This document shows positions 3,889-30,440 of a stretch of 30,440 nucleotides of DNA, piece after piece. The stretch spans positions 1 through 30,440 of the forward strand of contig LKNC01000001.1 in NCBI GenBank assembly GCA_001564255.1. The letters run 5' to 3'. Each line of letters starts with the position of its first letter. Within the stretch, counting starts at the first letter, position 1. The stretch comes from Natrialbaceae archaeon Tc-Br11_E2g1 (GTDB lineage Archaea; Halobacteriota; Halobacteria; Halobacteriales; Natrialbaceae). Below the pieces are notes generated by a model. The model was given only the letters and a program-made list of their open reading frames with translations, was not told where the DNA came from and searched no databases. Position numbers and translations under genes: made by a program.

Positions 3889-4611
3889 CTAGGCGGTAAC
3901 GCCCAGGTACGTATCGAGTATCTCCTCGTCCGCCTCGAGTTCCGCCGAGGTCCCTTCCCAAACGATTTCGCCCTGGTTGATCACGTAGTTGCGGTCGGCG
4001 AGGGCGAGTCCGACGTGGACGTTCTGTTCGACGAGAAGTACTGTGATTCCGCGGTCGTTGAGTTCCTCGATGATGTCCATCACGTCCTGGACGATGTAGG
4101 GGGCGAGTCCCTCTGTGGGCTCATCGAGCAAGATGACGTCGGCACCGCCGACGAGCGCCCGGGCGATCGACAGCATCTGCTGTTCGCCGCCAGAGAGCGA
4201 CGACCCGTGGTTTTCGGTCCGGTCCTGGAGGTTCTCGAACATGCCGAGTGCCTCCTCGATCGACATCGCGTCGGCGTCGTCTCCACCGCCAATGTGAGCG
4301 ATCTCCAGGTTTTCCATGACGGTGAGCTCGGGGAAGATCCGGCGTTCCTCGGGGACGAACGAGATTCCACGCTGGACGGTCTCGGTGGCGTCGACCTCTG
4401 AGACGTCTTCGCCGCGATAGCCGACGGTGCCGGCGGTCGGCTGGATGATGCCCATAATCGTCCGCAGGGTGGTCGTCTTTCCGGCCCCGTTGCGGCCGAC
4501 CAGTGAGACGATTTCGCCCTCGTGGATCTCGAGTGACAGGTCGTGGAGGACCTTCGTCTCGCCGTATCCAGCGTTGACACCGTCGACGGTGAGGAGTGGG
4601 TCGGCGCTCAT
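3889..4611 (-). CDS. livF: ABC transporter ATP-binding protein, LivF type
   Basis: 240 aa cytoplasmic ATPase, normal length for LivF. Walker A is GRNGAGKTT, the signature is LSGGEQQ, and Walker B is VILLDEPTEGLAP, followed by the switch region LLVEQNV, whose EQN is characteristic of LivF. It pairs with LivG to power import through the fused permease of this operon. The start overlaps the livG stop by 4 nt (ATGA), so translation is probably coupled. It is the last gene of the minus-strand operon livJ-livHM-livG-livF. The substrate is most likely branched-chain amino acids, but the HAAT family also carries other amino acids, amides and aromatic acids, so this is family-level inference. Confidence 0.93.
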   Translation of the reverse strand: MSADPLLTVDGVNAGYGETKVLHDLSLEIHEGEIVSLVGRNGAGKTTTLRTIMGIIQPTAGTVGYRGEDVSEVDATETVQRGISFVPEERRIFPELTVMENLEIAHIGGGDDADAMSIEEALGMFENLQDRTENHGSSLSGGEQQMLSIARALVGGADVILLDEPTEGLAPYIVQDVMDIIEELNDRGITVLLVEQNVHVGLALADRNYVINQGEIVWEGTSAELEADEEILDTYLGVTA

Positions 4612-5408
4612 TCGACCATCCCCCCGAGGTAGGCGTCCTGGACCGCCTGGTTGTTCGCGACCTCCTCGGGCGTTCCCTCCGCGAGGATTTCGCCGCGGTT
4701 CAACACGGTAATGTTGTCGGAAAGTTCCATCACGAGTTCGATGTCGTGTTCGATAAGCATCAGTGTCTGATCGACCAACACGTCTTCGATCAGATCGATC
4801 GTTCCCTGTGTCTCTTCGACGCTCATTCCGGCCGTCGGCTCGTCGAACAACACGAGGTCGGGGTCGGTCGCCAGCACGACGCCGATCTCGAGACGCCGCC
4901 GGTCACCGTAGGCGAGCACGTCCGCTTCCTCCTCCGCGATGTCGTCGAGGCCGACGCGCTCGAGGATTCGGTCGGTTCGCTCGTTCATCCGCTCGTACTT
5001 GTCGGTGGTCTTGAACAACGACTCGACGATGTTGTACTCGTCTCGGTGGACCGACTGTGCGGCGAGGCGAACGTTCTCTCGAACTGAGAGGCCGCCGAAT
5101 ACGTTCGATATCTGGAACGAACGGCCGATGCCACGGCGGACACGCTGTTGGGGCGAGAGGCCGGTGATGTCCTCACCGTCGAAGTAGATCGTCCCGTCGG
5201 TGACGGGAAGCGCCCCGGAGATGAGGTTGAACAGCGTGGTCTTGCCCGCGCCGTTCGGCCCGATGATGCTCCGGAACTCCCCCCGTTCGATCTCGAGGTC
5301 GACGTGGTCGGTCGCGGTGAACTCGCCGAACTTCCTGACGAGACCGTCGGTCCGGAGGATCGTGTCACCGGCGGCGACCGGTTCGCGCTCTTGGGCTTCC
5401 ATAGACAT
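4608..5408 (-). CDS. livG: ABC transporter ATP-binding protein, LivG type
   Basis: 266 aa. Walker A is GPNGAGKTTLFNLISG and the LivG-type signature is LAYGDRRRLEI, in place of LSGGQ. Walker B is LVLFDEPTAGMS, followed by LIEHDIELVM, where the H-loop EHD is typical of LivG. Its start shares one base with the stop of the permease gene (TAATG) and its 3' end overlaps livF by 4 nt, so the three genes form a tightly coupled operon. The first ~14 residues are a short extension before the ABC domain. Confidence 0.93.
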   Translation of the reverse strand: MSMEAQEREPVAAGDTILRTDGLVRKFGEFTATDHVDLEIERGEFRSIIGPNGAGKTTLFNLISGALPVTDGTIYFDGEDITGLSPQQRVRRGIGRSFQISNVFGGLSVRENVRLAAQSVHRDEYNIVESLFKTTDKYERMNERTDRILERVGLDDIAEEEADVLAYGDRRRLEIGVVLATDPDLVLFDEPTAGMSVEETQGTIDLIEDVLVDQTLMLIEHDIELVMELSDNITVLNRGEILAEGTPEEVANNQAVQDAYLGGMVE

Positions 5409-7411
5409 TAGTCACCTCCCCCCGTGCTTGAATCCTCTGGGGCTGGTTCCGTCTGTGGGCCGGGGCCGGGGCCACCCGGAAGGTACGGTGCGAGCAGTTC
5501 GGGCACCGAGACCAGTCCCCTGGGCAGGAAGATCACGAACAGGACGAAGATCGACCCGAGCACGAGTCGCCAGCGGTCGGTGTAGCCGGTGAGGACGTGC
5601 TCTAAGCTGAAGAACGTGAACGAGCCGATGATCGGGCCGTAGAGCGTGCCCATGCCACCGAGGATGACCATCACGATGACCTCACCGGAGACCATCCACT
5701 CGGCGTTGTCGGGGAACACTCGTCCCGTAAACAGGGTGTAGAGTCCGCCCGACAGGCCGGCGAGTGCACCACTGATGACGAACGCCCGGCGCTTGTAGAC
5801 GACCGTGTCGTAGCCGAGGAACGTCGCTCGCTGTTCGTTCTCGCGGATGGACTTGAGCACGGAACCGAACGGCGACTGCAACATCCTACGGGTGAGCAGG
5901 AAGCCGACGACCAGCGCGGCCAGTGCGACGTAGTAGAACAGCAACTGGCCGGTGAGAACCGTCGTACCGACGAAGATACCGATCGAGTCGAGATCGACGC
6001 CGATCCCGGCGATCCCGTAGAATGGATCGAGTCCGAAGATCCCCTCCGAACCACCGGTGACCTCGCGCTCTTCACCGAATAGCTCGATCGTATCGAGGCG
6101 GTATATCGCGTTGTAGAACAGTTCGGCGAACGCGAGGGTGATCATCGCGAAGTAAACGCCGGCGACCCTGATCGAGAGGAAGCCAACGAACCATGCGATG
6201 GCCGCGGAGATCACGATCGCGAGCGCGACGGCGACGATCACGGACTGAGTCACGTCCTGGATGGTGATCGCGACCACGTACGCGCCGAGCCCGTAGAACA
6301 GCGCGTGACCGAGCGAGACCAGTCCGGTGTAGCCCATAATGAAGTCGAGACTGAGCGCGAACAGCCCCCAGATCAGGATTTCGATCATGAGCGTGACGAT
6401 GAACGTCGAGTACAGCGTCCCTGCACCTAACGGGACCAACGCGAGCAGGAGTATCATCGCGAGTCCCAAGCGGTTTCGCGTCTGTGGATCGAGGAACCCG
6501 CCACGGGACCCGGTGAGCAGATCCCCGCTCTCGTCTTCGGGCGCTTCGGTCCCGAACAGTCCCTGTGGGCGGATCAGGAGGATACCGATCATCAACAGGA
6601 AAATCACCATGCCCTCGAGAAACGGGAAGTACGGCCGCAGGATCGATTCCTGCAGGATGCCGACGAGCAGCCCGCCGGCGACCGCGCCCTTGAAGCTCCC
6701 CAGCCCGCCGAGGACGACGATGACGAACGCCGGGATGATGACGGACATCCCCATCTCGGGGTTGACCTGTCGGGTGCCGGCGAGGATAATGCCGGCGAAC
6801 GCCGCCAGCGCTGCACCCATACCGAACACGAGCGAGTAGTATCGGTCGATGTTGATCCCGAGGTTTCGGACCATCTGGCGATCCTGGGAACCGGCACGGA
6901 TGATGAGACCGTATCGCGTGTACTCGAGTGATGCCCAGACACCGAACGCCATCAGACTACCGGCGACGATGATGAATACGTTGTACACGCCCACGCCGAG
7001 TCCGAGCACGGAGACGGTGCCGCTGATGACGTCAGGTCGGGCCAGGCTCGAGGCACCGGGCCCCCATATCAGGTATATGAGGTCGTTTATCACCAGTACG
7101 AGTCCGAACGTCAACAGGATGTGATAGAGCGGGTTCCGCCCGTACAGCGGCTGGACGGTGTATCGTTCGATCGCCACACCGATGACGCCGACGATCAACG
7201 GTGCGACGATCAATGCGGCGAAAAACGCCGTCCCACCGAAGGGTGCGATCAGTGCCAGTGCGAAGTACGCACCGAGAGCGAACAGTTCACCGTGGGCGAA
7301 GTTGATGACGTGCATCACGCCGAAGATAACCGACAGTCCCGCGGCGAGCAATACGTATACGACGCCGAGCGTTAGCCCGTCCAATAGCTGTTGTATAACT
7401 CCAGCAACCAT
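5408..7411 (-). CDS. livHM: Fused LivH-LivM branched-chain amino acid-type permease
   Basis: 667 aa, about the sum of LivH (~290) and LivM (~320). Residues 1-~290 carry LivH hallmarks (VIFGVMHVINFAHGELFALG and a long run of membrane helices ending ILLIRPQGLFGTEAPE). Residues ~290-315 form a hydrophilic acidic linker. The remainder is LivM, with GYTGLVSLGHALFYGLGAYVV and a conserved cytoplasmic loop near RENEQRATFLGYD, followed by an acidic Gly/Pro-rich C-terminal tail. No stop, start or frame break separates the halves, so this is a genuine fusion and not a frameshift. Both half-permeases of the heterodimeric channel are therefore made in one chain. The stop overlaps the livG start. A 22-nt gap separates it from the upstream binding-protein gene. 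Confidence 0.92.
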   Translation of the reverse strand: MVAGVIQQLLDGLTLGVVYVLLAAGLSVIFGVMHVINFAHGELFALGAYFALALIAPFGGTAFFAALIVAPLIVGVIGVAIERYTVQPLYGRNPLYHILLTFGLVLVINDLIYLIWGPGASSLARPDVISGTVSVLGLGVGVYNVFIIVAGSLMAFGVWASLEYTRYGLIIRAGSQDRQMVRNLGINIDRYYSLVFGMGAALAAFAGIILAGTRQVNPEMGMSVIIPAFVIVVLGGLGSFKGAVAGGLLVGILQESILRPYFPFLEGMVIFLLMIGILLIRPQGLFGTEAPEDESGDLLTGSRGGFLDPQTRNRLGLAMILLLALVPLGAGTLYSTFIVTLMIEILIWGLFALSLDFIMGYTGLVSLGHALFYGLGAYVVAITIQDVTQSVIVAVALAIVISAAIAWFVGFLSIRVAGVYFAMITLAFAELFYNAIYRLDTIELFGEEREVTGGSEGIFGLDPFYGIAGIGVDLDSIGIFVGTTVLTGQLLFYYVALAALVVGFLLTRRMLQSPFGSVLKSIRENEQRATFLGYDTVVYKRRAFVISGALAGLSGGLYTLFTGRVFPDNAEWMVSGEVIVMVILGGMGTLYGPIIGSFTFFSLEHVLTGYTDRWRLVLGSIFVLFVIFLPRGLVSVPELLAPYLPGGPGPGPQTEPAPEDSSTGGGD

Positions 7412-7433: not shown

Positions 7434-8708
7434 TTACCGATCGCAGCCGGTGTCCTCACAGTCCGGGATGGCCTCCTGCCCGTCGAGTTCCATGAGGTCG
7501 AAGGTGACTTCGGTGACGTCACCGCCGTCCTCGGGCTCGACGAGTTCACCCATCCAGACCGGATTCTCTGCCTGTCCGTCACACTCGCGAAAGCGGTTCG
7601 TCCCGAAGATCGTCTCGTGCTCGAGGTCGTTGAGCGTGTCCTTGACGACGTCCGGGTCCCGGGAACCGGCTTCCTGAATACCGGTTGCGACCATTCGGAT
7701 CGACTCGAAGCCGACCCGGGAGAAGTTGTCCGGCAGTTCGTCGTGCATGTCCTCGTAGGCGTCGACGAACTCCTGGTTGTCGCCGGTCTCGAGTTCGTGT
7801 GAGTACCGCACGCCGGTGTAGGTGCCGACGGCCTGGAGGCCAGCACCACCGCGAACGGGCGTGAACGAGCCCGTCGTCGTGACGATCGGGATGTCGTCTT
7901 GCAGGTCTCGTTCACCGGCCTGTTGCAGGAAGATCGCGAGGTCGGCACCCGTCATTCCGACGACGAGTGCGTCGGCGTCGTCGGCGTTGTTCTGAATCTG
8001 GGTGATGAACGCGTCGAAGTCGGTCGACCCCTCGTCTGAGGTAGTCTCGCCGACGTTCTCGTAGGAGTCACTGAGCGACTCCATCCGGGCTTCGAACTCG
8101 TCGCGAACCGACTCGCCGTAGACGTAGTCGGCGTAGTGGTAGAAGATCTGATCACCGAGCTCATCGTTGACCCACTGGGCCATCACTTCGGTCATCTGGG
8201 CGGTGTTCGTCTCGAACCGGAAGACGTACTCACTGCAGTTCGAGCCGGTGATCGAGATGTCGGCCGCCCCCGGCGTGTACACGACGCCGTTCGAATCGGC
8301 GACGTCAGCGACCGCTAGCGCCGCGGAACTGTTGATCGAGCCTGTGAGGAAGTCTGCCCCGTAGTCCTGGATCGCCTCCTCGGCCTCACGGGACGCCGCC
8401 GCCGCGCTCGTCTGGGTGTCGAACGTCTCGTACTCGAACTCGAAGTCGTACTCGTCGCTCTCGTTGACCCACTCGATGCCGACTTCGTTACCCTTGTGGC
8501 GTTCTTCACCGAGTTCGGCGAACTCCCCCGTGAACGGCTCGAGGATACCGAGCGTGACTGTATCGAAATCGTCCAGATCTTCGCCATTCCCGGCTTCACC
8601 TGGATCACCGACACAGCCAGCTAGGCCGGTTACGCCGGCTACGCTGCCTGCAGTCACTGCTTTGATAAACTGTCGTCTGCTCCCCTGGGTATTGCTATCC
8701 GGAGTCAC
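7434..8708 (-). CDS. livJ: ABC transporter substrate-binding lipoprotein, LivJ type
   Basis: 424 aa from the GTG at 8708 (MTPDSNTQGSRRQFIKAV). An in-frame GTG at 8744 would add 12 residues. I prefer 8708 because a TATA-like CTTTATCC (8731-8738) is centred ~26 nt upstream, but the AT-rich region holds other candidates. The signal is Tat type (SRRQFIK) with a lipobox (TGLAGC), so the protein is expected to be a lipid-anchored extracellular receptor. The mature part is a Peripla_BP_6 fold: VTLGILEPFTGEFAELGEE, EEAIQDYGADFLTGSINSS, HYADYVYGESVRDEF and DFDAFITQIQNNADDADALV. It is the first gene of the transporter operon. The ligand cannot be read from sequence. Confidence 0.9.
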   Translation of the reverse strand: MTPDSNTQGSRRQFIKAVTAGSVAGVTGLAGCVGDPGEAGNGEDLDDFDTVTLGILEPFTGEFAELGEERHKGNEVGIEWVNESDEYDFEFEYETFDTQTSAAAASREAEEAIQDYGADFLTGSINSSAALAVADVADSNGVVYTPGAADISITGSNCSEYVFRFETNTAQMTEVMAQWVNDELGDQIFYHYADYVYGESVRDEFEARMESLSDSYENVGETTSDEGSTDFDAFITQIQNNADDADALVVGMTGADLAIFLQQAGERDLQDDIPIVTTTGSFTPVRGGAGLQAVGTYTGVRYSHELETGDNQEFVDAYEDMHDELPDNFSRVGFESIRMVATGIQEAGSRDPDVVKDTLNDLEHETIFGTNRFRECDGQAENPVWMGELVEPEDGGDVTEVTFDLMELDGQEAIPDCEDTGCDR

Positions 8709-8730
8709 ACTCCCAACTATCTCCGATAAT

Positions 8731-8770
8731 GGATAAAGATTCACCCGTATTTATCCCGGTTTTATATTAT
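8731..8770 (-). promoter_or_regulatory. Promoter region of the liv operon
   Basis: On the minus strand there are three AT-rich TATA-like elements: ATAATATAAA (8761-8770), GATAAATAC (8746-8754) and CTTTATCC (8731-8738). The last is centred 26-27 nt before the GTG at 8708, and the first about 22 nt before the GTG at 8744. Which one is used decides the livJ start. Confidence 0.5.
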
Positions 8771-9398: not shown

Positions 9399-10627
9399 TG
9401 TCGTCCACGGCGACCAAGACACTCCAAGCGACCCTTGCCCCGCCGACCACGCACAAGGAGGAGAAGCTTCAGGACACGCTCGAAACGTACAGAAGCGCGT
9501 TGGACGACGCCTTCGAGAGTGGCGAGGACACGATGACTGGCGTCAGTGACGTTGTGACGCCCTACGACCTTCCGTATCAGGCGAAGGCTGCTCTCTGCAA
9601 CTACGTCCCGAAGCTCCGGAACACGTACAACGCTCGTGAAATCGACGACGAACACCCGCTCCGCCTAACGAACCAAGCTGCAAAGTTCGACCACTCGGGC
9701 GAACGTGAGCACGAGTTCACGTGGTGGGCACCGCGACCGGGACGCGGAACGAACTTCTGGATTCCACTCCGAATCAACCCGGAGCAAGAAGGACTTTGGC
9801 ACGATCTCCTCAACGAGGACGCGAAGGCCGGTCAGATTCGGCTTCAGCGCCACCGGGAGAACTGGGTACTTCACGTCACCGTCGAGTACCCGATTGAGGA
9901 ACCGACGACAGACGGTGACACCACACCAGTCGGGCTTGATATCGGTGAGACTGCGCTAATCACGGCCTGTGGCCTTAAGCACGGTACACCGACAAGACCC
10001 GTTCTCTGGAGTGGCAAGCGTGCGAAACACCTCCGAAAGGAAATGTCGACCACGCTTCAGCGACTACAGGAACGCGATGCTGAATGGCGCATCGACGAAC
10101 GGTTCGACTACTACCAGAACGCACTCACGGATATCCTCGAGAAGGCCAGCTGCGAGGTCGTCGAATACGCTGGTACCTTCGAGAACCCGGTGATCGTGAT
10201 GGAGGATCTGACGTACATCCGTGAGAACTTGGATTACGGCAAGTACATGAACCGGCGACTCCACGCATGGGCCTTTGCACGGCTTCAGGGTCGTGTTGAG
10301 GACAAAGCGAGAGATGCCGGTATCCCAGTCGAATACGTGAACCCAGCCTACACGTCCCAGACGTGCCACGAGTGCGGACACATCGGAAAGCGAAGTACGC
10401 AAGCAGAACTCCGGTGTACGAACGACGACTGTCACATCTCGACGTTTCAGGCGGACATCAGCGCAGCAGCAAGCATCGCTAAGCGGGTTGATCCGTGGGG
10501 AGAGAGCGTTCCTTGGAAACCGGGACGCAATGACTCGCCTCGGGATGGGAGCGGTTGTGACACCGCCACAAGACCACCCAAGCCGAGCGCACCTACGCAA
10601 ATGACGCTTGGAGCGTATGAGTCTTAA
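9398..10627 (+). CDS. tnpB: IS200/IS605-family RNA-guided nuclease TnpB
   Basis: 409 aa. The RuvC-like catalytic residues are all present: D181 in GLDIGETALI, E269 in IVMEDLTYIRE and D353 in QADISAAASIAKR. A four-Cys zinc ribbon lies between the last two (C323, C326, C340, C345). TnpB proteins are programmable nucleases guided by an RNA made from the element's right end; they cut the empty donor site and help keep the element. The usual D-x-N-A-A after the last Asp reads D-I-S-A-A here, a mild variation. The N-terminal half (WIPLRINPEQ, WVLHVTVEYPIEE) is the usual wedge/REC region. An in-frame GTG 3 nt earlier exists, but the ATG at 9398, coupled to the tnpA stop, is the natural start. Confidence 0.95.
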   Translation: MSSTATKTLQATLAPPTTHKEEKLQDTLETYRSALDDAFESGEDTMTGVSDVVTPYDLPYQAKAALCNYVPKLRNTYNAREIDDEHPLRLTNQAAKFDHSGEREHEFTWWAPRPGRGTNFWIPLRINPEQEGLWHDLLNEDAKAGQIRLQRHRENWVLHVTVEYPIEEPTTDGDTTPVGLDIGETALITACGLKHGTPTRPVLWSGKRAKHLRKEMSTTLQRLQERDAEWRIDERFDYYQNALTDILEKASCEVVEYAGTFENPVIVMEDLTYIRENLDYGKYMNRRLHAWAFARLQGRVEDKARDAGIPVEYVNPAYTSQTCHECGHIGKRSTQAELRCTNDDCHISTFQADISAAASIAKRVDPWGESVPWKPGRNDSPRDGSGCDTATRPPKPSAPTQMTLGAYES

Positions 10628-11393: not shown

Positions 11394-11789
11394 ATGTACC
11401 GGATACTGGTCGGCATCGACACCGACGTAGACCGTGCGATGGCACAGGCAGCGGCGATCCGAAAGCTCCCGGCCGCAAGCGAGGAGATAACGGCGATCCT
11501 GACCCACGTCTTCCAGGACAACCCCGAAGGGGCGTCGATCCAGCACCTCGATTCGGTCCGAGCGGTCACCGAGTCCCTCGAGGAAAGCGACGTCGACTAC
11601 GAACTCCGCGAGGCGAGTGGCGAACCGGCACGGGAACTGATCACGGCGGCGGAGGAACTCGAGGTCGACATGATCTATCTGTCAGGTCGTCAGCGGACGC
11701 CGACCGGGAAGGTAATCTTCGGGAGCGTCACCCAAGAGGTCATCCTCGGGACGGATCGGCCGGTGACCACGGTGAGCCCCGACCGGTAG
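11394..11789 (+). CDS. Universal stress protein (UspA family)
   Basis: 131 aa single-domain USP. It begins MYRILVGIDTDVDRA, the usual first strand with an Asp. The end carries the nucleotide-loop region SGRQRTPTGKVIFGSVTQEVI followed by the last strand PVTTVSP. The Gly-Ser of FGS is present, but the preceding G-x-x-G spacing is imperfect, so ATP binding is uncertain. The start is set by a TATA box 27 nt upstream; earlier in-frame codons lie in the divergent promoter region. Haloarchaea carry many USP paralogs with no assigned partner. Confidence 0.88.
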   Translation: MYRILVGIDTDVDRAMAQAAAIRKLPAASEEITAILTHVFQDNPEGASIQHLDSVRAVTESLEESDVDYELREASGEPARELITAAEELEVDMIYLSGRQRTPTGKVIFGSVTQEVILGTDRPVTTVSPDR

Positions 11790-11870
11790 TCGTCCGGCAC
11801 GTTTCGACTGTCGTCGCTCACGACGCCGCGAGCCATGCGACCCCAACGGGCCGGTTCACACCGACCCACA

Positions 11871-11877
11871 TATAAAT
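11871..11877 (+). promoter_or_regulatory. TATA box of the GNAT gene
   Basis: TATAAAT is centred 29 nt before the ATG at 11903 and only 11 nt before the in-frame ATG at 11885, which argues against the longer start. Confidence 0.6.
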
Positions 11878-11902
11878 TCCGTACATGAACGGCCAGCAGG
11901 CC

Positions 11903-12520
11903 ATGCAGCCGGGCCACCGACTCCCTTCCATGAACGCCTGCCCGGCCTGGAACCCCGCGACGTGCGATGGAACCGAAGGATGTCCGCCGCGGTGTCCCCG
12001 GTTCGTCGACCACCGTGGCGACCCGCTGCTCGTCGAGCCCTCGAGTCCGTGCCACGTCGACGCGATCGTCGCCATGTACGAGGACTACCCGGACGCCCAC
12101 CGATCGATGGGACTACCGCCCGTCCTGTCCGAACGGATCGTCGAGTGGGTCGAACACCTCCACGACGTCGGCGTGAACTTCCTCGCCCGCGACGGCGACC
12201 GCGTCGTCGGCCACGCGGCGTACGCCTCCACAGCGAGTGCCGAACCCGAGTTCGTCGTCTACGTCGATCCGGCGTATCACGGCAGGGGGATCGGGACCGA
12301 GCTCACCCGACACGCGATCGCGTACGCCGTCGAGGCGGGGCACGGGGCGTTGACCCTGGACGTCGACGCGGCGAACGAGCGGGCGATCCACGTCTACCGG
12401 AAGATGGGCTTTGAGACCGTCGAGTCGACCCACGCGGACCTCGAGATGCGACTCTCCCTCGAGGACCCCATCGCCGAACGGGTCCGGCTGCCGCCGGCAC
12501 AGCGGTCGGCACACGCCTAG
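11903..12520 (+). CDS. GNAT-family N-acetyltransferase with Cys-rich N-terminus
   Basis: 205 aa from ATG 11903. In-frame ATGs also occur at 11885 and 11930 (MNACPAW). The TATA box placement favours 11903, and 11930 would need a ~30-nt leader. A short Cys-rich N-terminal stretch (CPAWNPATCDG, then GCPPRCPRFVD, five Cys in ~25 residues) precedes the GNAT fold. The acetyl-CoA pyrophosphate loop is YHGRGIGTELTRHA, following EFVVYVDPAY. The last strand and helix are seen in LDVDAANERAIHVYRKMGF. The substrate is unknown. The Cys block could bind zinc and is not part of a standard GNAT domain. Confidence 0.85.
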   Translation: MQPGHRLPSMNACPAWNPATCDGTEGCPPRCPRFVDHRGDPLLVEPSSPCHVDAIVAMYEDYPDAHRSMGLPPVLSERIVEWVEHLHDVGVNFLARDGDRVVGHAAYASTASAEPEFVVYVDPAYHGRGIGTELTRHAIAYAVEAGHGALTLDVDAANERAIHVYRKMGFETVESTHADLEMRLSLEDPIAERVRLPPAQRSAHA

Positions 12521-23935: not shown

Positions 23936-23967
23936 CCGGATGAACTTAAACCCCAATTATGTCGTGG
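23936..23967 (+). promoter_or_regulatory. paa element, copy 1 (upstream of paaA)
   Basis: This 32-bp stretch is identical at 25 positions, without gaps, to 28569-28600 upstream of the second paaA. The best conserved parts are CCGG at the left, ACTTAAA in the middle and TCGTGG at the right. It ends ~8 nt before the paaA TATA box, so a bound activator could contact the basal factors. Confidence 0.65.
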
Positions 23968-23974
23968 GTGGAAA

Positions 23975-23982
23975 CTATTATC
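23975..23982 (+). promoter_or_regulatory. TATA box of the first paaA operon
   Basis: CTATTATC is centred 27-28 nt upstream of the ATG at 24006. It is flanked by GGTGG (23967-23971) and CCACC (23984-23988), a dyad that could let a repressor cover the TATA box. Confidence 0.6.
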
Positions 23983-24005
23983 CCCACCGTAATATCCCTG
24001 AGTGT

Positions 24006-24923
24006 ATGAGTTCGACAACGATCAACCGTGACGGATTCCGGGACCGAATCGAACGTGGCGAACAGGTAGAACCGACCGAGAACCTTCCACGGGAGTACCG
24101 GGAGGCGGCCCAGCGGATGATCCAGTTCCACGCGAACAGCGAGATCGTCGGCACGCTGCCCGAACGCCGGTGGATCAAAAAGGCCCCCTCGCTGCGGCGA
24201 AAGCGCGCGATCAGCGCGAAAGTCCAGGACGAGGCCGGCCACGCACAGGTCCTCTACCGGGTCGCCGAGACCCTCGGTCTGAAGACCAGAGACGAGATGA
24301 TCGAGGACTTACTCGAGGGCGATGCCAAGTACGCGAACGTCTTCAACTACGAGGCGAAGACGTGGGCGGACGCGGGCTACATCGCCTGCTTTATCGACGG
24401 AGCCGCGATGTTCCGCCAGGGGTCGCTGACCGAGTCCAGCTACGCTCCCTACGCACGCGGGCTGCGCAAGATCTGTTACGAGGAGTCCTTCCACGTCAAA
24501 CACGGCGAGGACATCATCCGGTCGCTGGCGACGGGTTCGAAAAAGGAACAGGAGATGCTCCAGGACGCCGTCGACCGCTGGTGGGAGCCGACCCTGCAGT
24601 TTTTCGGCCCACGTGACGACGATTCGGTCCACCAGGACGAACTGATGGACTGGGGGCTGAAGGTGAAGACGAACGACGAACTCCGCCAGCAGTTCCTAGA
24701 GGAGTTTTACATCCCCAAACTCGAGCAGTACGGGGTCGAGATTCCCGACGACGACCTGTACTACGACGAGGAAGCCGGACGGTGGGAGTACAGCCCACTC
24801 GACTGGGACCGGTTCCTCGAGGTCTCCCGTGGGGGCGGCCCGATGAACGACGCACGGATGGACGAACGAACGAGGGCCTACGAGGACAACGTCTGGGTCC
24901 GCCGCGCTGCGGGGGTGAACTGA
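24006..24923 (+). CDS. paaA: 1,2-phenylacetyl-CoA epoxidase subunit A (catalytic)
   Basis: 305 aa from ATG 24006, set by a TATA box; an upstream in-frame ATG at 23940 falls within the promoter. It is the diiron oxygenase subunit that epoxidises the ring of phenylacetyl-CoA. Ferritin-like metal ligands are visible as E46 (HANSE), E76-x-x-H79 (VQDEAGH) and E160-x-x-H163 (YEESFH). The segment SEIVGTLPERRWIKKAPSLR follows the E. coli PaaA pattern closely, and later NDELRQQF and the terminal WVRRAA also match, so this copy looks like the canonical enzyme. It is first in the operon paaA-paaB-paaC-paaD-zinc ribbon, with one base between it and paaB. Confidence 0.94.
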   Translation: MSSTTINRDGFRDRIERGEQVEPTENLPREYREAAQRMIQFHANSEIVGTLPERRWIKKAPSLRRKRAISAKVQDEAGHAQVLYRVAETLGLKTRDEMIEDLLEGDAKYANVFNYEAKTWADAGYIACFIDGAAMFRQGSLTESSYAPYARGLRKICYEESFHVKHGEDIIRSLATGSKKEQEMLQDAVDRWWEPTLQFFGPRDDDSVHQDELMDWGLKVKTNDELRQQFLEEFYIPKLEQYGVEIPDDDLYYDEEAGRWEYSPLDWDRFLEVSRGGGPMNDARMDERTRAYEDNVWVRRAAGVN

Positions 24924-24924
24924 G

Positions 24925-25203
24925 ATGAGCGAAGCGACCGGCGGGGAGAACGTCTACCTCGTCTTCCGTCGTCAGGACGCCGCTGCGCCGCTTACCGAAG
25001 CCGGCAGCGTCGACGCAAAAAACGCCGAACTGGCGAAGATCTACGCACGCGAGAACTACGCTCGCCGCAAGCGAACCGAGGAACTCGTCGTCGTGCCGAA
25101 GACGGCGATGGAATCGCTCGGCGAGGTTCCCTACGGAGGGACCCTGGAGAAAGAGTACCGCGAAAACCGTGGCTACGAGAACGTGGAGGGATTCACCGCA
25201 TGA
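24925..25203 (+). CDS. paaB: 1,2-phenylacetyl-CoA epoxidase subunit B
   Basis: 92 aa, the usual small-subunit size. It matches PaaB in order: VYLVFRRQD, then a substituted spacer, VDAKNAELAKIYARENYARR and EELVVVPKTAM. PaaB bridges PaaAC heterodimers in the oxygenase complex. This copy is more divergent from bacterial PaaB than the second one in the window (it lacks the H-x-G-S-x-H-A and W-V-V-P spellings). Its stop overlaps the paaC start by 4 nt. Confidence 0.88.
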   Translation: MSEATGGENVYLVFRRQDAAAPLTEAGSVDAKNAELAKIYARENYARRKRTEELVVVPKTAMESLGEVPYGGTLEKEYRENRGYENVEGFTA

Positions 25204-25979
25204 CCGTCGACAACTTAGAGAACGCCGAGGAATCGTTCGTGAACGCACTCGAGGCCGAACTGCTCGCCGTGGCCGACGACGACCACGTGATGGGCAACCG
25301 GCTGTGTGACTGGACGGGCGTCGCGCCGACCGTCGAAGAGGACGTCGCGATCAGCAACGTCGCCCAGGACGAACTCGGCCACGCCGAGTTGTTCTACGAC
25401 CAGGTCGCCGAGATTCGCGAGGGGAGTTCCCAGGAACTCGCCTACGAGCGCTCGCCGGAGGAGTACCGCAACGCCCGCCTGCTCGAGGCCCCCTTCGAGG
25501 ACTGGGCGGACACCGTCGTCCGCCACTACTGTTATGACGTCGCCGACGCGGTCCGGCTGCGGGCGCTCGCCGACGGCGAGTACGAGCCGATCGAGGGCGT
25601 CGCCCAGAAGGTCCTCGACGAGGAGGCCTACCACACCGAACACGGCGAGGTGTGGATCGAGACGTTAGCCGCGGACGTCGAGGGGCGTGAACGGCTCGTC
25701 GCTGCACTCGAGGACGCCTGGGCGGACGCGCTGGCCTTCTTCGAGCCCGCCGGCGAGGTCGACCCCGCCGAGGCCGGCGTCTACGGCCGCCCACTCGACG
25801 CCCAGCGTGAGGCGTTCGTCGAACGGGCCGGCTCGACGTTCGAGTCCGTCGGCCTCTCCGTTCCCGACGTCGACCCCGCCGCGGAGACCGGCCGGGAGGG
25901 TGCACACAGCGACGACCTCGAGGAACTGCTCGCGGAAACGCGGGAGGTCTACGAGCAGGGGGTGGACGTGGGTGCCTGA
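25200..25979 (+). CDS. paaC: 1,2-phenylacetyl-CoA epoxidase subunit C
   Basis: 259 aa ferritin-like subunit. In the bacterial complex PaaC is the non-catalytic partner of PaaA and has lost its metal ligands. Here two E-x-x-H pairs are present, E58-x-x-H61 in AQDELGH and E142-x-x-H145 in DEEAYH, along with acidic residues near VEEDVAIS that could be further ligands. It may therefore still bind metal. DWADTVVRHYCYDVADAVRL is the typical PaaC central helix. The 3' end overlaps the paaD GTG start by 8 nt. Confidence 0.9.
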   Translation: MTVDNLENAEESFVNALEAELLAVADDDHVMGNRLCDWTGVAPTVEEDVAISNVAQDELGHAELFYDQVAEIREGSSQELAYERSPEEYRNARLLEAPFEDWADTVVRHYCYDVADAVRLRALADGEYEPIEGVAQKVLDEEAYHTEHGEVWIETLAADVEGRERLVAALEDAWADALAFFEPAGEVDPAEAGVYGRPLDAQREAFVERAGSTFESVGLSVPDVDPAAETGREGAHSDDLEELLAETREVYEQGVDVGA

Positions 25980-26418
25980 GCCGATCGACGTCACTGAGAT
26001 GCTCGCACGCAACGAGCCCGGCTTCGATCTCGCGGCCGGCGAGGAGTCGTTCCCCCCGGTCGAGGTCGACGGTGAACTCACCGAAGAGGACCTCTGGGCG
26101 GCCCTAGAGGACGTCGAGGACCCCGAACTGCCGGTCAGCCTCGTCGAACTCGGCCTGATCCAGGAGGTCCGTCTCGAGGACGGTCACGTGACGGTGACCT
26201 TTACGCTGACCTACACCGGCTGTCCGGCCAAAGAGATCATGGAGCGAATGATCGAACGGCGCGTCGAGACCGTTCCCGGGGTCGACTCCGTGACCGTCGA
26301 CCTGCGATACGACGACCCGTGGACGCCCGCGGACATGCACGAGTCCGCCCGAGAAAAACTCGGCGAGGCCGGGTTCGCGTGTCCACTCGCGGGCGGGGGT
26401 GTCTGCGATGACGAGTGA
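25972..26418 (+). CDS. paaD: PaaD, MIP18/DUF59 domain part (Fe-S assembly factor for the epoxidase)
   Basis: 148 aa from GTG 25972 (an in-frame ATG at 25999 is the alternative). The ~45-residue N-terminal lead is followed by the DUF59 domain: LWAALEDVEDPELPVSLVEL, LTYTGCPAKEIMERMI and VPGVDSVTVDL. The conserved Cys of YTGCPA is present. PaaD is needed for a working phenylacetyl-CoA oxygenase and belongs to the SufT/MIP18 family linked to Fe-S assembly. It ends GFACPLAGGGVCDDE and lacks the C-terminal zinc ribbon of bacterial PaaD, which is encoded by the next, overlapping gene. Confidence 0.9.
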   Translation: MPEPIDVTEMLARNEPGFDLAAGEESFPPVEVDGELTEEDLWAALEDVEDPELPVSLVELGLIQEVRLEDGHVTVTFTLTYTGCPAKEIMERMIERRVETVPGVDSVTVDLRYDDPWTPADMHESAREKLGEAGFACPLAGGGVCDDE

Positions 26419-26620
26419 AAGGGGCGCAGCCGGCCGGACCGGATCGGCCGTCGCGGAGAAGATGGACGAGAACGCGGGTCGACCCGTCGAGGACGGCGAG
26501 GTCGCCTGCCCGTACTGTGGGTCGACGGAAACCCGCGCGGAGAACGCCCGTGGCCCCTCGCTGTGTCGGACCATCTACTACTGTGAGAGCTGTGAGAACC
26601 CCTTCGAGCGATTCGGCTGA
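26408..26620 (+). CDS. Detached zinc-ribbon domain of PaaD
   Basis: 70 aa from ATG 26408, overlapping the paaD stop by 11 nt in another frame. A short disordered lead is followed by ACPYCGSTETRAEN, then SLCRTIYYCESCENPFERFG. This matches the C-terminal zinc ribbon of bacterial PaaD (CPxCGS...FGST-C-x-A-L-Y-R-C-x-x-C-x-E-P-F). The four likely zinc ligands sit in CPYC and CESC, with an extra Cys in SLC. The two parts of PaaD are therefore separate proteins here. Both frames read cleanly, so this is an encoded split, not an obvious sequencing frameshift. Confidence 0.85.
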   Translation: MTSERGAAGRTGSAVAEKMDENAGRPVEDGEVACPYCGSTETRAENARGPSLCRTIYYCESCENPFERFG

Positions 26621-26631
26621 CAACCAGAGAG

Positions 26632-27132
26632 ATGACGAACGAATACGACGACATCGGCGACTTCGACGGAACAGTACGCACGGCGACGGCCGAAGACGCA
26701 GCGCCGATCGAACGGTTGTGGGACGGCTTCGCGTCGATCCTCGCGGCGTACGACGACCGGTTCGAGCTCGAAGCGGACGGTAAAGAGCGCTGGCAGAGTT
26801 ACTTCACGAACAACCTGGTCGACTCCTCCCGTGGGGACGTACTCGTCGTCGAACGCGGGGGGGAGATCGTCGCCACCCTCGAAGTGCGGGTGGTCGGCGG
26901 CCACCCCGTGTTCAAGTTCGGCCAGCACGGCTACGCCTACGGCCACTACGTCGACGAGGCCCACCGCGGGGAGGGGATCGGGACGGCCTTGCTCGAGGCC
27001 GCAGAACGGTGGTTCGCCGAGAAGGGGCTCCCGTTCTGGCGCATCGACGTCCTCCACGGGGAGTCCGAAGCCGGCGTCTACGAGGAGTACGGCATGCGAC
27101 CGATGGAGACGGTCTACGAGAAGGAGCTATGA
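26632..27132 (+). CDS. GNAT-family N-acetyltransferase within the paa operon
   Basis: 166 aa. After an acidic lead come DGTVRTATAEDAAPIERLW, the central strands GDVLVVERGGEIVATLEV, and the acetyl-CoA loop HRGEGIGTALLEAAERWF, closing with RIDVLHGESEAGVYEEYG. The fold is clear and the substrate is not. It starts 11 nt after the zinc-ribbon gene and its stop overlaps the ferredoxin start (ATGA), so it appears co-transcribed with phenylacetate genes, although acetylation has no known role in that pathway. Confidence 0.85.
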   Translation: MTNEYDDIGDFDGTVRTATAEDAAPIERLWDGFASILAAYDDRFELEADGKERWQSYFTNNLVDSSRGDVLVVERGGEIVATLEVRVVGGHPVFKFGQHGYAYGHYVDEAHRGEGIGTALLEAAERWFAEKGLPFWRIDVLHGESEAGVYEEYGMRPMETVYEKEL

Positions 27133-27416
27133 CGGCCGGCGAGGAGACGTACACCGTCGAGTTCGTCAAAGAGGGCGTCGAGATCGAGTGCCCGGCGGAT
27201 ACGTACGTCCTCGAGGCGGCCGAGGACGCCGGGATCGACCTCCCCTACCAGTGTCTCCAGGGGGTCTGTGCCGCCTGTAGCGCGAAAGTCGAGGGCGAGG
27301 TCGATCGCAGCCAGGATCACATTCTAACCCAGTACGAGAAAGACAGGGGGTACGCGTTGCTCTGTGTGGCCTACCCCCGTTCGGACCTGAAAGTCCACTC
27401 GCGAGAAGAACCCTAA
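27129..27416 (+). CDS. Plant-type 2Fe-2S ferredoxin
   Basis: 95 aa. Cluster ligands are C42, C47, C50 and C79 (C-x4-C-x2-C-x28-C), in the beta-grasp context VLEAAEDAGIDLPYQC. Bacterial PaaE joins a flavin reductase to such a ferredoxin domain; here only the ferredoxin is encoded, so a separate reductase elsewhere would be needed. Its place at the end of the first paa operon suggests that it feeds electrons to the epoxidase. It overlaps the GNAT gene by 4 nt and converges on paaI. Confidence 0.9.
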   Translation: MTAGEETYTVEFVKEGVEIECPADTYVLEAAEDAGIDLPYQCLQGVCAACSAKVEGEVDRSQDHILTQYEKDRGYALLCVAYPRSDLKVHSREEP

Positions 27417-27444
27417 CACGAGTTCCTTTCTCCGTCCCCGACGG

Positions 27445-27840
27445 CTACCGGATGATGTAGACCCGCCCGCGGAACGTCGAGACCCGTTCGTCGTTTTCGT
27501 CGGTCACGACCACCTCGTATTCGGCGGTTCGACCGGCCAGATGGGTCTCCTCGGCGGTCGCGGTGAGCGTCGACCCGACGTCGACGGCGTCGAGATAGGA
27601 GATGTTCGTCTCGAGGGCGACCGCGGTGTCCCCGTGGGAGTTCGAGGCGGCGGCGAAGGCGGCGTCGGCGAGCGAGTAGACCGCGCCGCCGTGGGGGGTG
27701 CCATGGAAGTTCGTCAGCTCCTCGGTGACCTCGAGTCGCGTGCGTGCGTGGCCCGGTTCGAAGTCGACCAGTTCGATGCCAAGGGTCTCACAGTAGGGGT
27801 CGCTCTCGACGTGCTCTCTGTGCTCATCGGTGTCTGCCAT
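27445..27840 (-). CDS. paaI: Hotdog-fold acyl-CoA thioesterase, PaaI type
   Basis: 131 aa from ATG 27840, supported by a TATA box; the 20-residue upstream extension is unlikely. The PaaI active-site block is NFHGTPHGGAVYSLADAAFA, with N44, HGG at 50-52 and the catalytic Asp59. The rest is LETNISYLDAVDVGSTLTA and GRTAEYEVVVTDENDERV. PaaI hydrolyses hydroxyphenylacetyl-CoA and similar dead-end CoA esters, sparing CoA. It lies between the two oxygenase clusters, downstream of and in the same direction as the regulator. Confidence 0.88.
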   Translation of the reverse strand: MADTDEHREHVESDPYCETLGIELVDFEPGHARTRLEVTEELTNFHGTPHGGAVYSLADAAFAAASNSHGDTAVALETNISYLDAVDVGSTLTATAEETHLAGRTAEYEVVVTDENDERVSTFRGRVYIIR

Positions 27841-27863
27841 ATCGGTACACACTGCCACGGGAG

Positions 27864-27872
27864 AAAAAGTAT
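27864..27872 (-). promoter_or_regulatory. TATA box of paaI
   Basis: Minus-strand ATACTTTTT is centred 28 nt upstream of the ATG at 27840. Confidence 0.5.
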
Positions 27873-27909
27873 CTACTGGAAGCGGCGAAGGGGTTCTCAC
27901 CGGCCGTAC

Positions 27910-28548
27910 TCACGCGAACATCTGGTGGAAAAGCGACTCCTCGGCCCGACGCAACCGTTCTAAGAACGCCGACTTGCTGATCCCGAGGGCGTCGGCGACG
28001 TCTTCTGAGGAACACTCCCGCGGGATGGAGAAATAGCCCATCTCGAGGGCGGTGCGGATACACTCCTCTTGGGGTGGGGTGATGTCCCACTGCTGGCTCG
28101 GGGACTCCTCGGCATCCGACTGGAGGGGGTAGACCCGTTCGAGCCGGACGCCGACGGTGTCGCCTGCGGTTTCCATGACGTTTTTGAGGACGTCGCGGCC
28201 GACGACGGCCCCGAAGACCATCGACGCGCCGTTGCGATAGCGCAGCGTCTCGACGATGAGGCCACCGTTTATCAGGTCGTGGACAACACAGGGCTGTTTC
28301 GAGAGACACCGATACCGGTACCGGCCGTCGGTCTCCGAGACGTGGAGATACCGGATCCGGTCGTCGGCCTCGAGGACGTCGACGAGTCGGTCGTTTCGTG
28401 GCGAACTGAACTGCAAGAGCGCGTTGCCGTCCGCCCGGAGCTGGGGGGGCAGGGCGTGGACTTCGACGCTTACTTTCCGGGTCGCGTCGGCGAGTGGGGA
28501 GCCGTCGTCTTCGACTCTGAACTCGACGGCGAGACATTCATCTATCAT
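27910..28548 (-). CDS. Bacterio-opsin-activator-like transcription regulator (HTH-10)
   Basis: 212 aa from ATG 28548 (a GTG at 28563 would add five residues). The C-terminal ~55 residues are the HTH-10 domain: WDITPPQEECIRTALEMGYF, SSEDVADALGISKSAFLERL. The N-terminal ~150 residues are the Bat-type sensor half, with FSSPRNDRLVDVLEADDRIRYLHV and VCRLERVYPL-like spacing. Such regulators often control neighbouring genes. It is divergent from paaA2, and its own TATA-like TTTTAA (28579-28584) lies inside the 32-bp element shared by both paa operons, so it is the obvious candidate to bind that element and regulate itself. The ligand is unknown; an aryl-CoA is a reasonable guess. Confidence 0.88.
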   Translation of the reverse strand: MIDECLAVEFRVEDDGSPLADATRKVSVEVHALPPQLRADGNALLQFSSPRNDRLVDVLEADDRIRYLHVSETDGRYRYRCLSKQPCVVHDLINGGLIVETLRYRNGASMVFGAVVGRDVLKNVMETAGDTVGVRLERVYPLQSDAEESPSQQWDITPPQEECIRTALEMGYFSIPRECSSEDVADALGISKSAFLERLRRAEESLFHQMFA

Positions 28549-28568
28549 GGTATACGATTTCACTCACA

Positions 28569-28600
28569 CCGGCTGTACTTAAAACCCCCCTATATCGTGG
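28569..28600 (+). promoter_or_regulatory. paa element, copy 2 (between the HTH-10 regulator and paaA2)
   Basis: 25 of 32 positions match the copy at 23936-23967 without gaps. It sits ~12 nt upstream of the paaA2 TATA box and overlaps the likely TATA box of the divergent regulator gene (TTTTAA on the minus strand, 28579-28584). Confidence 0.65.
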
Positions 28601-28612
28601 CAAACCCCTATG

Positions 28613-28620
28613 CATTAAAA
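28613..28620 (+). promoter_or_regulatory. TATA box of the second paaA operon
   Basis: CATTAAAA is centred 25-26 nt upstream of the ATG at 28642. Confidence 0.55.
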
Positions 28621-28641: not shown

Positions 28642-29583
28642 ATGGAAATCGACACAGTCAAAGAACGCGCCGGTCCGCGGGAGTTCAGCGCTGCGGACGA
28701 GATGCCCCTGGAGTACCGAGAAGCCGCGACCCGAATGATCGAGTTCCACGCGAACAGCGAGATCATGGGGGCGTACCTGGAGCGGCCGTTCATCCGGGAA
28801 GCCCCGAGTATCGACCGCAAACTCGCCTACTCGGCGAAAGTCCAAGACGAGATCGGGCACGGCCAGTTGCTCTACCGTGCCGCCGAGTCGCTGGGCGTGA
28901 AAACCCGCGAGGAGATGCTCGATGACCTCGCAAACGGGAAAGGGAAGTTCCTCAACTGTTTCCACTACCCGATGAAAAGCTGGCCGGAGACGGCGATGAT
29001 CGCCTTCTTCGTCGACGGTGCCGCGATGCGCCGACAGGCGACCCTGCGTCGCACCAGCTGGGAACCGTACGCCCACGCGATGGACAAGGTCTGTTTCGAG
29101 GAAGGGTTCCACGTCAAACACGGCGAGAGCATCCTCGCCGAACTGATGACGGGATCGAAAAAAGAACAGGAGATGACCCAAGAGGTCTTCGAGATGTGGT
29201 GGCCCCGCATCATCCAGTTTTTCGGCCCGACCGACGACAAGAGCACCCACCACGACTTCTCGGCCGATGTCGGCCTGAAGACCCAGTCCAACGACGACCT
29301 CCGGAACCTGTTCTTGCGTGAGTACATCCCGAAAGCCGAGAAATACGGCCTCGAGATCCCGGACGAACCACGCATCCGCCAACGCGACGACGGGACCTAC
29401 GAGGTCGAAGAAGGCGATCTGGACTGGGACGAGTTCTTCACGATCGCGAAAAACGAGTACGAACCGGGTCTCGGCCAGATCAACGGCCGCAAGGAAGCCC
29501 AAAAGGCAGTCCAGTGGGTCCGTGACACCTTAGAGTGGGAGAACGTGCCCGAAGGAACTGCGAAACCACAGGCAGCCGACTAA
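28642..29583 (+). CDS. Second PaaA-like diiron oxygenase subunit
   Basis: 313 aa paralog of PaaA with intact ligand motifs: E40 (HANSE), E70-x-x-H73 (VQDEIGH) and E154-x-x-H157 (FEEGFH). It differs from canonical PaaA in the segment after the first ligand, SEIMGAYLERPFIREAPSID versus SEIVGTLPERRWIKKAPSLR, and at FHYPMKSWPETAMIAFFVDG and SWEPYAHAMDK. Its C-terminus is extended (GINGRKEAQ-like, ending in WVRDTLEWEN) and lacks the WVRRAA end. It probably oxidises a different acyl- or aryl-CoA. It heads the operon paaA2-paaB2-paaC2, under the same type of upstream element as the first operon. Confidence 0.9.
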   Translation: MEIDTVKERAGPREFSAADEMPLEYREAATRMIEFHANSEIMGAYLERPFIREAPSIDRKLAYSAKVQDEIGHGQLLYRAAESLGVKTREEMLDDLANGKGKFLNCFHYPMKSWPETAMIAFFVDGAAMRRQATLRRTSWEPYAHAMDKVCFEEGFHVKHGESILAELMTGSKKEQEMTQEVFEMWWPRIIQFFGPTDDKSTHHDFSADVGLKTQSNDDLRNLFLREYIPKAEKYGLEIPDEPRIRQRDDGTYEVEEGDLDWDEFFTIAKNEYEPGLGQINGRKEAQKAVQWVRDTLEWENVPEGTAKPQAAD

Positions 29584-29585
29584 CG

Positions 29586-29903
29586 ATGATCTGGGAAGTA
29601 TTCCGTCAGGAAGAGCAGGGTGACTATCACACCCACTGTGGCAACGTTCACGCGCCGGACCGCGAGATGGCAAAGCAGTTCGCCGCCATCCAACACGCCC
29701 GGCGCAAACCGACAAACAGCATCTGGGTCGTCCCCAAAGACGAGATCGGCGAACTCGACGCCGACGAGAACTCGTTTGGCGGCGTCACCGACAAGAGTTA
29801 CCGCTGGGCCCCGACCTACAAGTCCGACCTCGACCACGCGGCCGAAGTCATCGATTCGGAAGGCCAGCAGGCCGAAGCCGAGAAACAGCGAGGTGATGCC
29901 TGA
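29586..29903 (+). CDS. Second PaaB-like subunit
   Basis: 105 aa. It is closer to bacterial PaaB than the first copy: MIWEVFRQEEQGDYHTHCGN, VHAPDREMAKQFAAIQHARR, and SIWVVPKDEIGEL. A ~20-residue charged C-terminal tail (SEGQQAEAEKQRGDA) is extra. The ATG at 29586 follows the paaA2 stop by 2 nt; the longer in-frame reading would start inside paaA2. Its stop shares a base with the start of the next gene (TGATG). Confidence 0.88.
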   Translation: MIWEVFRQEEQGDYHTHCGNVHAPDREMAKQFAAIQHARRKPTNSIWVVPKDEIGELDADENSFGGVTDKSYRWAPTYKSDLDHAAEVIDSEGQQAEAEKQRGDA

Positions 29904-30440
29904 TGGCGGGCGAAATCGAGAGCGTCGACGAACTCGGCGACGACGAACAGGAAGCCCTAGAGACACTCCTCTTCCGGCTGGCCGACGACGAGTTCGTCTT
30001 CGCAGAACGGTACACCGAGTGGCAGGTCCGTGCCCCCACCCTCGAGTCGGACCTCGCGCTCTCGAACAACGCCCAGGACGAACTCGGCCACGCCCGGCTG
30101 TGGTACGACGTCTTAGGGGATTTCGGCCACGAGGAACACGAACTCGTCTACGAGCGCGAGCCCGGCAACTGGCGTCACAGCACCCTCGTCGAACAGGAGT
30201 TCCTCGAAGGCGACTGGGCCGACGCCATCCTGCGTCACTACCTCTACGACGTCGCCGAGGAGATCCGACTCGGGGCGCTCGAAGAGTCCAGTTACGCCAA
30301 GATCGCCGGCCGCGTCGACAAGATTCAAGACGAAGAGCGTTACCACCGCGAACACGCCGAGAGCTGGATGGAACGGCTGGCCGACGGCGAGGGCCTCGAA
30401 CAGCTCCACGAGGCCGTCGACCGCCTGTTCCCACACGCGA
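29903..30440 (+). CDS. Second PaaC-like subunit, 3' truncated by the window
   Basis: The ATG at 29903 overlaps the paaB2 stop and the frame stays open to the window edge (179 residues seen; about 80 more expected). It is PaaC-like: APTLESDLALSNNAQDELGH, LEGDWADAILRHYLYDVAEEI, and DEERYHREHAESWMERLADG. Like the first PaaC it keeps two E-x-x-H pairs (E60-x-x-H63 and E145-x-x-H148) that bacterial PaaC has lost. A paaD-like partner may follow outside the window. Confidence 0.9.
   Translation, partial: MAGEIESVDELGDDEQEALETLLFRLADDEFVFAERYTEWQVRAPTLESDLALSNNAQDELGHARLWYDVLGDFGHEEHELVYEREPGNWRHSTLVEQEFLEGDWADAILRHYLYDVAEEIRLGALEESSYAKIAGRVDKIQDEERYHREHAESWMERLADGEGLEQLHEAVDRLFPHA

Follow-up and report, generated by a model that had tools for sequence, protein, structure and literature searches.

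The window analysed here, that is, the whole stretch of 30,440 nucleotides (nt) from the Natrialbaceae archaeon Tc-Br11_E2g1, carries two operons of phenylacetate (paa) genes on its plus strand. Canonical paa operon 2 (28642..30440) comprises paaA2 and putative paaB- and paaC-like genes and is cut by the window end; PaaA2 starts with the ATG at 28642 and scores 285 bits against TIGR02156 (PaaA, cut-off 280). The second paa operon, operon 1 (24006..27416), holds paaA1, paaB1, paaC1, a paaD-like gene, a putative short Cys-rich open reading frame (ORF), a GNAT gene and a 2Fe-2S ferredoxin gene, all assigned by Pfam and NCBIfam matches apart from the short ORF. Upstream of paaA2, on the minus strand, lies the gene of a Bat-type regulator (27910..28548) with the helix-turn-helix (HTH) domain Pfam HTH_10, hereafter HTH-10. 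The promoters of paaA1 and paaA2 share a short element. It seems to belong to a conserved type of switch that precedes genes for the breakdown and uptake of phenylacetate in many haloarchaea. The HTH-10 protein is the proposed binder of this site.

An earlier note on this DNA had reported that positions 23936–23967 and 28569–28600 agree at 25 of 32 positions without gaps, and this is correct. Of all ungapped 32-mer pairings of the 281-nt and the 92-nt intergenic region it is the best, and in 2000 first-order Markov shuffles the top match never exceeded 23, with 0/2000 reaching 25. A pattern drawn from both copies and allowing up to 3 mismatches is found in the window at these two places only (0.00 expected). 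The genome search that the note had suggested gave the same two places in the organism's own assembly (2.16 Mb) and no scatter of the motif; this assembly is a metagenome-assembled genome, 68% complete and in 210 contigs, so that the absence of the pattern elsewhere in it is weak evidence. Chance likeness of the two promoters is ruled out for paaA2 by the conservation and co-occurrence given below, and is made unlikely for the paaA1 copy by the shuffles. The outline of the repeat had to be redrawn. Its left part, CCGG-N-TG, is not conserved, since the tabulated positions −5 to −2 carry 0.08–0.32 bit among 74 unique paaA2 sites. The conserved unit instead extends rightward past the 32 bp, into a TCAA resembling the B recognition element (BRE) and then a TATA-like box. 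The note had also placed the TATA boxes at differing distances (8–12 nt) from the two copies. CTAT lies at an equal offset from the dyad in both, at 28608–28611 and 23975–23978, and no difference in spacing is required.

The conserved unit is 39 nt long and consists of an AT tract, a 16-bp dyad (majority CCCGTCTATAGACGGG), the BRE-like TCAA and the TATA-like box. At the paaA2 operon this control element (Site 1) occupies 28576..28614 on the plus strand, with the AT tract ACTTAAA at 28577..28583, the dyad at 28585–28600 and the TATA-like box at 28608–28613. On the minus strand the AT tract also stands at the place expected for the TATA box of the HTH-10 gene. Site 1 scores 38.0 bits with a matrix made from 131 other paaA2 sites and lies 64 nt upstream of ATG 28642. 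Canonical PaaA (PaaA2, E<1e-140) is encoded in 74 of 125 genomes of the same family, from which 78 PaaA2 loci were used (30 loci plus 48 of 52 further regions, 4 PaaA1-like regions being left out). When these loci were stacked without gaps on the AT tract as an anchor, the element stood at −58 to −67 from the paaA2 start in 78/78, a register that is partly imposed because the anchor was searched for in a fixed range of 50–100 nt before the start; for one locus (L076) it was set by hand. MAFFT aligns 70 unique 39-mers without gaps. Among 74 unique sequences the strongest columns are the AT tract, the CC/GG and the AT centre of the dyad, the AA that follows it, and the T of the TATA-like box. 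A matrix scan of the 200 nt before paaA, with no imposed register, put the best position at −58 to −70 in 108/108 loci (80/80 named loci and 28/28 loci of an order sample, with an ATG in each); many of these repeat family loci behind the matrix, and 62 unique sites are new. The lowest score among them is 13.4 and the next 22.1, and the named genera with a site include Natrialba, Haloarcula, Haladaptatus, Halorussus, Haloferax and Halogranum. Thus, the element is conserved upstream of paaA orthologues, at 78/78 family loci and 108/108 other or repeated loci, and it adjoins the BRE-like and TATA-like columns on their 5′ side, which agrees with the placement as an upstream control site put forward in the earlier note.

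The symmetry of the element lies in its middle part. Among 132 unique sites, the most self-complementary centre is between positions 15 and 16, with 0.634 of pairs complementary and 0.48 at the next centre. The excess of complementarity comes from pairs 11/20 (0.69 vs 0.50 expected) and 14/17 (0.61 vs 0.52), and pair 12/19 is below expectation (0.32 vs 0.36). Agreement of the two halves within a sequence was matched by reshuffled halves in 0/2000 trials, and in 5/2000 after thinning to 55 sequences, tests that kinship among the sequences inflates. Single examples of the dyad are AGTCTATAGACT in a Natrinema locus (L230) and GTCTATAGAC in a Halorussus locus (L248). The element thus has dyad symmetry, as an archaeal activator site would.

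The candidate regulator accompanies the site closely. Its protein matches Pfam HTH_10 at residues 156–207 with 66.9 bits (cut-off 23.1) and falls just short of Pfam BAT, a domain associated with GAF and HTH_10, with 25.2 bits (cut-off 25.8) and E 1.6e-5. At E<=0.001 HTH_10 and BAT are its only Pfam matches and NCBIfam gives none, so that no membership in the PaaX or PaaR families was found. An orthologue occurs once in each of 74 of the 125 family genomes, exactly those with PaaA2 (weakest E 5.5e-63), and in 0/51 family genomes without canonical paaA at E<=1e-40. A model of the family paaA2 promoters (R1) matches in the same 74 genomes at E<0.006, and under stricter filters no comparable site appears in any of the 51 genomes that have no canonical paaA (best E 0.17); as R1 was built from those promoters, only the absence in the 51 counts as a test. 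Owing to shared ancestry the co-occurrence does not amount to 74 independent events. In one genus (g11, 5 genomes) the HTH-10 gene is distant from paaA and the site is kept. The protein of 27910–28548 is well supported as a candidate regulator, the site, paaA2 and the orthologue marking the same 74/125 genomes. In an alignment of 53 orthologues C5, C81 and C87 are invariant and C17 is nearly so, and the conserved cysteines may possibly serve metal, Fe-S or thiol sensing. The structure model (pLDDT 87.8, pTM 0.63) has a predicted order of strands and helices in which residues 1–142 would form two beta-alpha-beta units ahead of the C-terminal HTH. A fold search with it at E<=0.001 returned YajQ (TMq 0.22) and Thermoplasma Ta1207 (TMq 0.45), neither of them informative, and no sequence relative was found in the PDB at E<=0.01.

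The element is not confined to paaA promoters. With a matrix made without the window, the top four positions in the window are 28576 (38.0 bits), 8768 on the minus strand (32.3), 11869 (10.7) and 23943 (4.9), followed by −2.3; none of the four matrix settings tried displaces them from the top, with only the last two changing places. The start that follows is, in turn, that of paaA2 (at 64 nt), of a gene for the substrate-binding protein (SBP) of a LIV-type ABC transporter (58 nt), of a GNAT gene (59 nt) and of paaA1 (61 nt). Second-order Markov windows (n=200) gave a mean top score of −4.4 and a maximum of 9.8; 8/200 reached 4.9 and 0/200 reached 10.7. Similarly, among 300 one-strand shuffles at the composition of 811 nt of intergenic DNA, 6 reached 4.9 and none reached 10.7. 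Site 3 (8730..8768, minus strand, dyad 8744–8759) is the control element of the transporter operon and lies upstream of GTG 8708; it was also found in the own genome by R1 (8767–8738, minus strand, E 0.032) and by R2, a model with secondary sites and all four window sites in its training set. The SBP gene (7434..8708, minus strand) encodes a protein with a Tat-like start (Peripla_BP_6, 208 bits, scored on the longer ORF 7434–8744; TAT_signal_seq, 21.0 bits, cut-off 16.7), and is followed by a fused permease gene (BPD_transp_2) and two ATPase genes of the same transporter (3889..7411, minus strand), whose Urt- and Liv-type NCBIfam matches are all under cut-off. Site 4 (11869..11907, plus strand, dyad 11878–11893) is the proposed control element of a gene for a Cys-rich GNAT acetyltransferase (11930..12520, plus strand; Acetyltransf_1, 67.3 bits), with ATG 11930. 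Site 2 (23943..23981, plus strand, dyad 23952–23967, TATA-like box 23975–23980) is the proposed control element of the paaA1 operon, before ATG 24006.

Other genera also carry the site, at transporter and GNAT genes and at genes of the universal stress protein (USP) type. A matrix built solely from paaA promoters, unlike R2, was applied to 29 loci with secondary matches and to L145, a locus of genome G085, and gave 43 rows above zero with a start 45–95 nt downstream: 21 before SBP genes, 11 before GNAT genes, 5 before USP genes (all at −59), 2 before paaA2, 1 before a second HTH-10 gene of G085 (−60) and 3 others; one locus (L194) gave no row. The SBP sites, found with SBP homologues in 21 other genomes, lie exactly at −58 in 15 of 21, a register partly imposed by choosing the start as that of the longest ORF in the 45–95 nt range. 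Among R2 matches outside paaA at E<0.05 (40 genomes), 25/26 precede an SBP, USP or GNAT gene, the exception being in G069. The small regulon proposed before thus holds and widens to the transporter and probably the GNAT gene, with the membership of the paaA1 oxygenase being less sure. An IS200/605-type element (9006–10627; tnpA 9006–9398, tnpB 9395–10627) separates the SBP operon of the window from its USP gene. In G011, G015, G017, G082 and G084 the SBP operon and the USP gene are divergent, with a site of its own for each.

In the reading that we consider probable, the HTH-10 protein of 27910–28548 would bind the element, activate transcription from it and so control a small phenylacetate regulon. 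Computation shows the conservation, register, dyad, gene set and co-occurrence. We infer that HTH-10 binds and that it activates and does not repress, as well as the leaderless starts and the identity of the inducer and of the transporter substrate. A dimer of HTH-10 would sit on the 16-bp dyad. Next to the dyad lie the BRE-like TCAA and a TATA box that is poor in most cases, where the dimer would aid the assembly of TFB and TBP, giving rise to a leaderless transcript that begins near the start codon. Phenylacetate itself or phenylacetyl-CoA would act as the inducer. At loci with a divergent regulator gene, such as paaA2, bound HTH-10 would in addition overlap the upstream edge of the promoter of its own gene and could autoregulate. 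In the window the regulon would comprise the paaA2 operon, the LIV-type transporter, which may import the aromatic acid, probably the GNAT gene and probably the second paa operon. The haloarchaeal consensus includes TTWT and CGAAA, and 72% of Haloferax volcanii transcripts are leaderless (PMC4983044). The TATA-like box beside the dyad and the BRE-like TCAA lies at the distance expected for leaderless starts, and many SBP promoters have TTTATA or TTTATG there. A position 5′ of BRE and TATA speaks for activation; for CsmR of H. volcanii positive control is likewise concluded from the motif position (PMC13286277). The earlier interpretation is partly supported: a conserved control site upstream of paaA and HTH-10 as its candidate regulator are well supported, the left boundary and the TATA spacing were off, and the link to paaA1 is less sure.

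The same layout can be read differently. If the AT tract were the TATA box of paaA, the transcript would have a leader of about 35 nt, and HTH-10 on the dyad would keep transcription from starting as long as phenylacetyl-CoA is absent, in the manner of the bacterial PaaX and PaaR. The tract is nearly invariant and, at many paaA promoters, makes a better TATA box than CTAAGG. However, the BRE position to the left of the tract (−5 to −2) is little conserved (0.08–0.32 bit), and the conserved TCAA-like and TATA-like columns, TTTATA or TTTATG at many SBP promoters, lie on the right at leaderless distance, which makes a repressor operator rather unlikely. Nor need there be a regulator site at all, if the conserved block joins the TATA box of the divergent HTH-10 gene to parts of the paaA promoter. 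Among the 80 named loci the tract lies 24–44 nt from the ATG of a divergent HTH-10 gene in 63, 39 of them at 24–27 nt, as expected of such a core promoter. Nevertheless, the remaining 17 loci, sorted by HTH-10 alone and not by other divergent genes, have no close divergent HTH-10 and still have an AT-rich tract in all (TAAA in 15), as do the SBP, USP and GNAT promoters. A plain TATA box of the HTH-10 gene was rejected as the whole answer for this presence without an HTH-10 neighbour. In addition, a conserved dyad whose half-sites agree lies between the two TATA-like boxes, so that a core promoter alone is insufficient and appears highly improbable. That the dyad is read by a different DNA-binding protein gains something from the abundance of HTH_10 proteins, with 21–37 matches per genome in five genomes; yet the present HTH-10 group, the only one for which co-occurrence was computed, tracks paaA2 (74/74 vs 0/51, E<=1e-40) and is usually its divergent neighbour, and we regard another binder as quite unlikely.

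Several observations weigh against activation of the whole proposed regulon by HTH-10. The AT tract has no explained role in the model, and the CsmR deletion mutant is also described as derepressed (PMC13286277). Scans of the own genome with R1 (E<=10) and R2 (E<=2) gave Sites 1 and 3 only; Sites 4 and 2 are missing in both, despite the training of R2 on them. There is no site at paaK, where nothing scores above −2.3, and none in register at the USP gene of the window (11394–11789), homologues of which have one in five other genomes. Three of the 43 matrix rows precede no long gene. Site 2 in register lacks the AA of the BRE, and its 4.9 bits, obtained with the window excluded from training, are reached somewhere by 8/200 shuffled windows and 6/300 intergenic shuffles. 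Moreover, a close orthologue of paaA1 was found in one other genome (G085, 87% identity; next best 53%) among 392 genomes sampled in the order, and its promoter has no element of this class (best score −16.6). A paaA1 copy that is a chance or decayed leftover, with a regulon of only paaA2, transporter, USP and GNAT, would fit the weak score, its absence from both scans and the lack of the site in the sole close orthologue. Conversely, the 25/32 match is unmatched by shuffles, strand and register are right at 61 nt before the ATG, and TCGT at positions 18–21 is common to both window copies and present in 0/131 other paaA2 sites. A leftover is a serious possibility, though one we doubt. The 12-mer TTATGTCGTGGG of the paaA1 site recurs at 8954–8965 on the minus strand, just 5′ of tnpA, with the AT tract spaced differently (0.00 expected from shuffles).

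The comparison with G085 bears on how paaA1 may have come under the control of HTH-10. In that genome a second HTH-10 gene (L145, 10722–11447) is divergent from paaA1, with the gene order otherwise similar. Its product is 36% identical to the first HTH-10 and scores 38.3 bits against BAT. The paaA1 promoter of G085 has ACTTAAATCC and then a perfect dyad TGCTCTATAGAGCA at −62, and the class site 60 nt upstream of the second HTH-10 gene makes a cascade of regulators possible. In the window the 281 nt between paaK and paaA1 hold no second HTH-10 gene, and the best match of the G085 second HTH-10 in the incomplete own assembly is the first HTH-10, at 36%. A search for remnants of the second HTH-10 gene 5′ of the window paaA1 gave matches at chance level only. 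A genome of the same genus (G122) has no operon 1 between paaK and paaA2. The difference between G085 and the window suggests a rewiring of paaA1 from a cascade to direct control, for which two genomes are too few as proof.

Bat of Halobacterium and NarO of H. volcanii are both HTH-10 proteins. Bat has GAF and PAS domains, in contrast to the window protein of 212 amino acids with its borderline BAT match. The Bat/bop upstream activating sequence system likewise has a regulator with a C-terminal HTH encoded near its targets, and similarity among its upstream promoter elements is reported (PMC2253796). For CsmR (2026), the paper gives a semi-palindrome TATCA(N4)TGATA 5′ of BRE and TATA, of similar geometry, with a different motif and with motility and shape as targets, and a search of its text for HTH-10 found no mention (PMC13286277). 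In Haloferax mediterranei nirK, nor and nosZ have a semi-palindrome 66–79 nt before their ATG, which plays a role in the expression of nor and nosZ; its motif differs (CGAAYATDKTYG), and its authors found no NarO homologue in that species (PMC10062603). The bacterial PaaX and PaaR are likewise local paa regulators, and the window protein is of another family (HTH_10, BAT).

According to a 2026 survey of 6,536 genomes, neither PaaY nor local regulators are present in most Halobacteria that have phenylacetic acid genes, which its authors take as a sign that regulation has diversified little or that these archaea depend on syntrophic associations; its main text has no match for promoter, HTH or binding site (PMC13186573). 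What we find here suggests a local regulator from another family that is conserved and for which a site and a set of genes are defined, so that the matter of local regulation can be taken to the bench. It also connects phenylacetate use with an unassigned LIV-type transporter, a GNAT enzyme and a USP. None of the literature matches listed describes this regulon, most subscription papers lying outside that coverage. In Haloferax alexandrinus the paaABCDHIJK genes rise jointly at 0.1 mM silver nitrate (PMC10694973), indicating that the cluster is regulated. A tie between the silver response and the conserved cysteines of HTH-10 is only an idea. It is also a tentative thought, taken as a whole, that this single HTH-10 would be the missing local phenylacetate regulator across Halobacteria, that the upstream TATA-like tract would aid activation, for instance through a second TBP/TFB contact, and that the paaA1 operon of the window was rewired from a paralogous HTH-10 by gaining the element. 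The tract occurs also where the HTH-10 gene is not nearby. For the rewiring of control after the gain of an operon, the window may serve as a small test case.

Some further sites stand apart from the genes above. At 2035 (minus strand) of L181 in G070 and at 2000 (plus strand) of L182 in G069, about 3.4 kb beyond paaA on its downstream side, there is a strong site of 36 bits. It precedes only a reading frame of 18 codons, the peptide being similar in both. A weaker site (14.5 bits) in L288 and L289 has no start in register, and G055 has eight places with an equal weak R2 score (12.7 bits), which are probably copies of a repeat. Near 1501–1523 of L035 and L037, CTTAAACGTCCC(C/T)GATATCGTGG has a similar layout 5′ of a small protein starting with CPDC, and near-copies of this motif occur in genera g4, g5 and g20.

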